Shown here: positions 5,730-6,487 of the stretch, in pieces
Layout of the letters: each line of letters opens with the position of its first letter
Numbering within the stretch: the stretch's first letter is position 1
DNA from: Candidatus Kaiserbacteria bacterium
GTDB lineage: Bacteria; Patescibacteriota; Minisyncoccia; Phycocordibacterales; UBA918
Direction of reading: 5' to 3'
Assembly: GCA_020428905.1 (NCBI GenBank)
Contig: JAGQLY010000008.1
Span: forward strand, 1 to 40,861
Length of the DNA stretch: 40,861 bases
The notes under the pieces: generated by a model
Database searches by the model: none
Seen by the model: the letters and a program-made list of their open reading frames with translations, nothing else
What the model was told of the DNA's origin: nothing
Position numbers and translations under genes: made by a program

Positions 5730-5790
5730 CTACGGTGAAGCACTACCGAAACCACGCGATATACGACAGTGGCCCCCAACAGGACATACC

Positions 5791-5819
5791 TGTGGATAAC
5801 CAGGTTTATATGTGTATAA
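5791..5819 (-). promoter_or_regulatory. Two DnaA-box-like nonamers
   Basis: TGTGGATAA (5791-5799) is the exact reverse complement of the classical box TTATCCACA; TGTGTATAA (5811-5819) fits TTATNCACA. They share orientation, are 11 bases apart, and lie about 90 bases before the first parS-like site in an AT-rich gene-free stretch. Confidence 0.5.
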
Positions 5820-5910
5820 AGGACACTGCTAATTCGCAGCACATGTCGCTTAAAAATGGCTGAAACATTGTATATATTGCATTGTCCCATATAACTTTTT
5901 GCTACGTATA

Positions 5911-5978
5911 CGTTTCACGTGGAACATATATAAAAGCTAAAGAGTGTGCTATTTTGAATAAAAGTTCCATGTGGAACG
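5911..5978. promoter_or_regulatory. parS-like sites 1 and 2
   Basis: CGTTTCACGTGGAACA (5911-5926) differs at one base from the ParB site TGTTTCACGTGGAACA. AGTTCCATGTGGAACG (5963-5978) keeps the GTTCC...GGAAC arms. The second site lies just before the yraN start codon at 5986. The parS consensus is established for Bacillus and many other phyla. Confidence 0.6.
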
Positions 5979-5985
5979 ACTGATT

Positions 5986-6384
5986 ATGGCAAAACATAAT
6001 GATATCGGTAAACTTGGCGAAGATATAGCTGCAAAGTGGCTCGAAAACAGTGGTTTTTCTATAATCGAGCGAAATTATCTTCAAAAATGGGGAGAGGTTG
6101 ATATTATTGCCTGCAAAACAAGAGACAAAGCCCACTTTGTGGAAGTAAAAACCGTTTCATATGAAACAAAGGATAAGCTTATACATGCGGTTTCACATGA
6201 AACTTGGCGCCCCGAAGAAATGGTGCACGAACATAAGCTCAAAAAACTTGGTCGTACCATACAGACATGGTTGAGTGAGAAAAAATACACAAAGGACTTC
6301 CAGATCGACGTGATTACGGTGCGTGTAGTTCCACGTGAAAAGTACGCAGTAGTTAAATATATAGAAAATGTTGTTTTGGAGTAG
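5986..6384 (+). CDS. YraN/UPF0102-family putative endonuclease
   Basis: 132 residues, about the family length. The restriction-endonuclease-like core is visible: GKLGEDIAAKWLENSGF (8-24), then WGEVDIIA and HFVEVKTV, giving the E-x-D ... E-x-K active-site pattern of the YraN/Holliday-junction-resolvase-like fold. Its biological role is unsettled even in model bacteria. ATG 5986 is chosen over GTG 5971, which lies inside a parS-like palindrome. Unusually, three parS-like palindromes lie within the coding sequence, two of them read as VSYET and VSHET. No Shine-Dalgarno is seen. Confidence 0.88.
   Translation: MAKHNDIGKLGEDIAAKWLENSGFSIIERNYLQKWGEVDIIACKTRDKAHFVEVKTVSYETKDKLIHAVSHETWRPEEMVHEHKLKKLGRTIQTWLSEKKYTKDFQIDVITVRVVPREKYAVVKYIENVVLE
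6153..6204. promoter_or_regulatory. parS-like sites 3 and 4, inside the yraN coding region
   Basis: CGTTTCATATGAAACA (6153-6168) and GGTTTCACATGAAACT (6189-6204). Both keep the outer GTTTCA/TGAAAC arms; the central CACGTG is changed to CATATG or CACATG. Their centres are 36 bases apart. Confidence 0.5.
6327..6342. promoter_or_regulatory. parS-like site 5, inside the yraN coding region
   Basis: AGTTCCACGTGAAAAG (6327-6342) keeps the core TTCCACGTGAAA of the classical site TGTTCCACGTGAAACA, with differences only at the ends. Confidence 0.5.
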
Positions 6385-6414
6385 TTCCACGTGAAATATG
6401 TTTCACGTGGAACA
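6383..6414. promoter_or_regulatory. parS-like sites 6 and 7, back to back; site 7 is a perfect match
   Basis: AGTTCCACGTGAAATA (6383-6398) is directly followed by TGTTTCACGTGGAACA (6399-6414). The latter is the exact reverse complement of the Bacillus parS consensus TGTTCCACGTGAAACA. They start at the yraN stop codon. Confidence 0.75.
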
Positions 6415-6432
6415 TATACTATTTTATTTCAT

Positions 6433-6448
6433 GTTTTCACATGAAACA
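6433..6448. promoter_or_regulatory. parS-like site 8
   Basis: GTTTTCACATGAAACA (6433-6448): right arm intact, one change in the left arm. It is followed immediately by the long hairpin at 6450-6487. Confidence 0.45.
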
Positions 6449-6449
6449 G

Positions 6450-6487
6450 GAGCAGCGACCATGTCCTATAGGACACGGTCGCTGCTC
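6450..6487. repeat. Long perfect-armed hairpin beside the parS cluster
   Basis: GAGCAGCGACC (6450-6460) pairs with GGTCGCTGCTC (6477-6487); inside, TGTCC-TATA-GGACA continues the stem after one A/C mismatch. There is no clear T-run on either side, so a normal terminator is doubtful. It shares the ATGTCC...GGACAC core with the palindromes near 2.6 kb. The rest of 6488-6633 shows nothing I can name. Confidence 0.45.

Follow-up and report, generated by a model that had tools for sequence, protein, structure and literature searches.

A cluster of eight parS-like sites in a contig of Candidatus Kaiserbacteria (GenBank assembly GCA_020428905.1, contig JAGQLY010000008.1) is very likely the chromosomal centromere, i.e. 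a parS array, of this Kaiserbacteria-like member of Candidatus Paceibacterota. Binding of ParB to it is inferred; a search for binding data on the ParBs of the group found none. The best reading of the locus as a whole is a dual-coding centromere linked to the replication origin and served by ParB and SMC in the absence of ParA, with both ParB binding and origin activity being inferences. Beyond what a first-pass annotation of the same DNA had noticed, the sites are written into the gene yraN and are accompanied by a conserved element made of DnaA-box-like sequences. The window, namely the whole stretch of 40,861 nucleotides that was analysed, is contig 34 of a 35-contig assembly of 668,765 bases. 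Its relevant features are the following:

5791-5825, forward strand: conserved origin-like element, TGTGGATAAccaggtttataTGTGTATAAAGGACA; contains a pair of 9-mers resembling DnaA boxes (many relatives have further ones) and AARGACA
5826-5910, forward strand: A+T-rich stretch between the DnaA-box element and parS 1; the A+T-richest 300 bases of the window start at 5851
5911-5926, no strand: parS 1, CGTTTCACGTGGAACA; core 14/14
5963-5978, no strand: parS 2, AGTTCCATGTGGAACG; core 14/14; directly 5' of yraN
5986-6384, forward strand: yraN (UPF0102, nuclease-like fold; Pfam PF02021, E=1e-19; also supported by alignment and an AlphaFold2 model)
6153-6168, no strand: parS 3, CGTTTCATATGAAACA; perfect 14-base palindrome; within yraN, encoding V-S-Y-E-T
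6189-6204, no strand: parS 4, GGTTTCACATGAAACT; core 14/14; within yraN, encoding V-S-H-E-T
6327-6342, no strand: parS 5, AGTTCCACGTGAAAAG; 13/14; within yraN, encoding V-P-R-E-K
6383-6398, no strand: parS 6, AGTTCCACGTGAAATA; 13/14; its core starts on the final base of the yraN stop codon
6399-6414, no strand: parS 7, exactly TGTTTCACGTGGAACA; adjoins parS 6
6433-6448, no strand: parS 8, GTTTTCACATGAAACA; 13/14

The parS-like cluster and its conservation

A motif scan of the window recovered eight parS-like 14-base cores spanning 5912-6447, of which five (starting at 5912, 5964, 6154, 6190 and 6400) match GTTYCAYRTGRAAC at 14/14 positions and three (6328, 6384 and 6434) at 13/14; the sites of the cluster thus match the parS consensus. 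The first-pass annotation had counted eight such sites within 540 bases, with a perfect match at 6399-6414, another site with a single mismatch, which is that at 5911-5926, and a back-to-back pair, namely the abutting 6383-6398 and 6399-6414; all of this is borne out. Its description of the sites as palindromes needs correcting in that most of them are imperfect, with that at 6154 alone being perfect.

A chance origin of the sites is rejected by two null models: none of 100 shuffled windows reached the observed match count, and a local Markov model predicts 0.001 sites of at least 13/14 per 540 bases. Outside the cluster the window offers one 12/14 match and nothing better. In the whole 668,765-base assembly the strict motif occurs five times, in every case inside the cluster and all within 500 bases, and a reversed control pattern does not occur at all. 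Equal density elsewhere, which the first-pass annotation had named as a ground for abandoning the centromere, was not encountered: no other part of the assembly has a comparable density of sites.

Directly 3' of the last parS is a strong hairpin (6449-6486; GAGCAGCGACC ATGTCCTATAGGACAC GGTCGCTGCTC) with a z-score of -7.3. It resembles a terminator, although no clear run of T follows, and at its tip is the palindrome TGTCCTATAGGACA, an echo of the AARGACA found in the DnaA-box element.

The relatives identified through yraN comprise Candidatus Kaiserbacteria, Nomurabacteria, Yonathbacteria, Taylorbacteria and other Paceibacterota. Strict parS sites were detected in 40 of 59 relative genomes, with yraN lying within nearly all of the loci sampled; the strict motif is absent from 6 of the 35 genomes of the family, and outside the family the sites become fewer and looser. 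Each of the 32 nearest yraN loci carries three or more sites, counted from 300 bases before to 200 bases after the gene, and one or more inside it; two or more sites are present at 59 of the 79 usable yraN loci. Between 250 bases before and 500 bases after the yraN start there are 3-5.5 sites per kb, against ~0.05-0.5 per kb beyond 1 kb. In the 400 kb read from contig 6 of one relative (G003), all seven sites of at least 13/14 fall within 0.7 kb. A scan of the phylum with the pattern EVKxVS(x)E recovered the exact in-frame site A in only 2 of 380 genomes, both within the family. The full dual-coding arrangement is thus a family-level feature, with looser forms extending across the order.

The strict sites of one genus occupy ~3 kb and not 0.5 kb (G005:C14 108725-111660; G011:C15 15081-18048). 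A record titled Burkholderiales (JAMPXW010000001.1) has a Paceibacterota-like yraN and DnaA-box element, and is probably a mislabelled bin.

The DnaA-box element and the position of the origin

Sequences resembling TGTGGATAA occur at 3.9 per kb in the 250 bases before yraN versus ~0.15 per kb, nearly all of them in one orientation. They build a composite, TGTGGATAACTNNGTGGATATGTGTATAAAGGACA and its variants, of which the window copy is 5791-5825. Of 197 genomes of the order, 74 contain one and only one match to the composite pattern, while the control has no match. At 28 of 30 matched loci, yraN follows 80-670 bases downstream in the same orientation. Hence, the locus meets the oriC criterion of clustered DnaA boxes occurring in single copy at a conserved position. 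No clear array of DnaA-trios, as defined earlier (PMC8287927), is present in the window, the upstream sequences having been inspected only by eye, and the strand from 5785 to 5905 has no special fold (z -0.5). In several loci (L104, L105, L122 and others), AAAGGACA is found just 3' of the DnaA-box element, often followed within ~30 bases by its inverted copy TGTCCTTTA; this inverted pair is possibly a binding site for another origin protein.

The cluster is not at dnaA. In the window assembly no two of dnaA, parB and the cluster share a contig, and the distances are inferred from relatives: the cluster and dnaA are separated by 13-52 kb in the 13 relatives with both on one contig, and the single-contig genome G036 (981,549 bases) has dnaA at 51 kb, the cluster at 84 kb and parB at 712 kb. 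The first-pass annotation had proposed looking for a GC-skew minimum near the sites, and in the relatives the outcome is mixed. The skew switches at the locus in four genomes: in G458 the changepoint is at 138,001, with the element at 138,403 and dnaA at ~101 kb; in G521 it is at 149,001, albeit with a wide accepted range, with the element at 149,754 and dnaA at ~114 kb; in G021 it is at 91,001, with the parS sites at 89.4-89.7 kb and dnaA at 122 kb; and in G036 its accepted range is 83-94 kb, with the element at 83.9 kb and dnaA at 51 kb. In G003 and G010, however, the switch is closer to dnaA than to the cluster, and in G001, G039 and G049 it could not be clearly placed. This suggests that the origin is perhaps not at the exact same spot in all genomes. 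In G003, G010 and G049 the skew hardly changes across the 30-46 kb that separate parS from dnaA, as would be seen after a shift of initiation or with two sites in use. Within the window the skew would fit a switch at around 6 kb; as only 6 kb lie to the left of it, we did not use this as proof.

We consider the DnaA-box element a good, as yet unproven, oriC candidate: it is probably the replication origin or a part thereof, with origin activity being inferred. A rival interpretation retains the centromere and places oriC at dnaA, 30-50 kb away, with the element reduced to a promoter of yraN under DnaA control or a site there that titrates DnaA. The changepoints near dnaA in G003 and G010 are in its favor, as are the DnaA-box-like sequences found near dnaA in several genomes. 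It is at odds with the switch at the yraN locus, ~30-40 kb from dnaA, in G458, G521, G021 and G036, and with the single-copy conservation of the composite element across the order, e.g. its sole occurrence in 818 kb of G036, at 83,868, beside parS. We view an origin at dnaA as the less likely of the two, while not setting it aside.

ParB, SMC and the apparent lack of ParA

The first-pass annotation would have given up the centromere if the genome lacked parB. It encodes one canonical ParB (contig 4, 362-1540, minus strand) with the ParB_N (5e-29), HTH_ParB and ParB_C domains, the CTP-binding motif and specificity residues of the parS type. ParB was likewise found in 58 of the 59 relative genomes. 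The genes around parB in the window genome, named by eye from their translations, are an AhpC-like gene, miaA and a ClpB-like gene, with no parA among them. Hence, the earlier statement that neither parA nor parB adjoins the sites is correct, with parB being on another contig and a parA match being absent from the genome. In the relatives G024, G003 and G036, parB is 178-353 kb from the cluster (178 kb in G024 and ~240 kb in G003), and no parAB operon was found near the sites in these three or in the window genome.

Searches with the ParA model PF13614 returned no match in the window genome, while all 14 control genomes were matched. Among the 59 genomes of the family and order there are matches in nine, one near full length and the others partial or weak. 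The near-full-length match (G012:C188 593-1183) comes from a contig of only 5 kb, in an assembly that is 6% contaminated, and could be of plasmid or foreign origin. The absence of ParA rests on this single Pfam model and on incomplete assemblies. ParBs that partner with ParA usually have an N-terminal LG(R/K)G stretch, which usually contacts ParA; this motif is not found ahead of the folded domain in any of the 28 ParBs of the order. SMC and ScpA are both present, SMC having been found in the window genome and ScpA in 39 of 41 genomes. The locus thus shows the feature set known from Streptococcus pneumoniae, i.e. an orphan parB, no parA found and SMC-ScpA present, and chromosome segregation by ParB and SMC without ParA appears likely.

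The centromere proposed in the first-pass annotation is supported by the retention of the cluster at one locus in the relatives, its position in the origin region and the canonical parB, with ParB binding not having been shown. The criterion that the sites of a centromere be concentrated in the origin region is met in the relatives. One might instead take the palindromes for operators of an ordinary dimeric repressor autoregulating yraN or its neighbors, with the likeness to parS being convergent. The sites do flank and overlap a single gene, two of them abut, and two are just upstream of yraN; but they also run through yraN and past its stop codon, the motif fits the ParB consensus down to the tolerated T/C positions, and the genome encodes a ParB with matching specificity residues, all of which makes a repressor improbable.

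Noc-type nucleoid occlusion, with Noc and not ParB bound to the sites, fares still worse and is rejected. The NCBIfam Noc model is the top-scoring one for the ParB of the window genome, yet its score is far under the cut-off (205.7 vs 315 bits). Noc sites are scattered round the chromosome, whereas there is one cluster here, and its DNA corresponds to parS and not to the NBS consensus. The residues at 173, 179, 184 and 201 separate parS from Noc-site binding, with Q/R at 173/201 defining the Noc type (Jalal et al., 2020, PMC7383237). The ParBs of the order have R173/G201 in 28 of 28 cases, no lysine at 179 or 184, and GERRLRA in 27 of 28; thus, neither the NBS consensus nor a protein of the Q173/R201 type is present.

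Returning to the proposed centromere, its mode of action can be inferred from the known behavior of these proteins. After nucleating on parS, ParB forms a closed CTP clamp that slides along the DNA, and the region loaded in this way attracts SMC-ScpAB. By inference, ParB made from its unlinked gene would load at the array, which lies immediately downstream of the conserved single-copy DnaA-box element, the probable origin or a part of it. Once loaded, it would close as a CTP-dependent clamp and slide into the flanking DNA, and it would recruit SMC-ScpAB, such that new origins might be organised and separated without a ParA motor. A dense array beside the origin could allow ParB to be loaded immediately on every new origin copy. 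In the absence of ParA, separation would have to depend either on loop extrusion by SMC or on some partner not yet identified.

The chromosomal ParABS systems of B. subtilis, Caulobacter and Pseudomonas aeruginosa share with this locus the 16-base parS consensus, several sites near the origin, a ParB with CTP-binding and parS-reading residues, and SMC-ScpA. They differ in that here no ParA was found, parB is unlinked, the LG(R/K)G motif is missing from the N-terminus of ParB, and all strict sites of the window genome lie within 0.5 kb over one gene. By analogy, the nearest precedent is the orphan ParB-parS system of S. pneumoniae, an organism without parA and with four parS sites near oriC (PMC7022226). 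Both have an orphan parB, parS near the origin, no ParA and an available SMC, whereas the present case, in an unrelated phylum, has one dense dual-coding array conserved at yraN. The DnaA-box element in turn resembles the BUS-type oriC with tandem DnaA boxes (PMC8287927) in its tandem boxes of the same orientation, its A+T-rich flank and, in four genomes, the skew switch; it differs in being beside yraN and the centromere and not dnaA, and in that DnaA-trios have not been demonstrated.

Sites written into the yraN coding sequence

Two of the sites precede yraN and three fall within it; of the remaining three, one begins at the final base of the stop codon and two follow the gene. An alignment with relatives indicates that YraN retains the conserved residues of the GEID...EVK signature. 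In the AlphaFold2 model (mean pLDDT 91) the in-gene motifs correspond to a strand end (57-61), a loop (69-73) and a turn between two strands (115-119); the match of YraN to a solved relative, 3fov, extends only as far as the EVK strand. Across the 79 usable related loci, 127 of the 138 sites within yraN share one reading frame, in which they read V-S-x-E-T or V-P-R-E-K.

Resampling of synonymous codons in the yraN of the window predicts 0.025 sites at 14/14, versus the two observed (P=0.0002). Similarly, shuffling codons within the gene predicts 4.6 sites for 32 loci versus 34 observed, and, for 48 more distant loci at a threshold of at least 13/14, 6.7 versus 54 observed. This excess over the codon nulls shows that the DNA, and not only the peptide, is under selection. 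The idea that the palindromes are a mere by-product of the V-S-x-E-T peptide, which is indeed conserved in relatives, is refuted by these nulls, which yield several-fold to 80-fold fewer sites, and is scarcely tenable given a site density just upstream of yraN equal to that inside. The array that straddles yraN and is written in its frame may be tolerated by the protein by virtue of encoding a strand end, a loop and a turn. A more sweeping proposal is that throughout the order the origin and centromere are fused in a ~0.7-kb locus, with DnaA boxes followed by a parS array in yraN, segregation by ParB and SMC without any ParA, and yraN retained next to the origin to provide a coding scaffold for the DNA of the centromere; the case for it is at present finely balanced.

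Taken singly, parS, ParB, ParA-less ParB and an oriC near parS are already known. For their combination, i.e. a dual-coding array inside yraN, adjoining a candidate origin away from dnaA, in an order without detectable ParA, we found no description in the open-access literature, and the same search uncovered no paper on centromeres of Patescibacteria; subscription papers were mostly not covered, and a prior description cannot be excluded. Patescibacteria constitute a very large and mostly uncultivated share of bacterial diversity, and the locus provides an entire order with a centromere that can be tested and with a candidate origin, as well as adding an independent lineage with ParB but no ParA. 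It is also a clear example of centromere evolution within a coding gene. The locus could further serve to mark the position of the origin in metagenome-assembled genomes, on which coverage-based estimates of growth rate depend.

A non-coding version of the array was observed in one relative (G058; L015 1501-1737), where five identical GTTTCACGTGAAAC sites, spaced by 53-63 bases, are upstream of yraN with none inside it.
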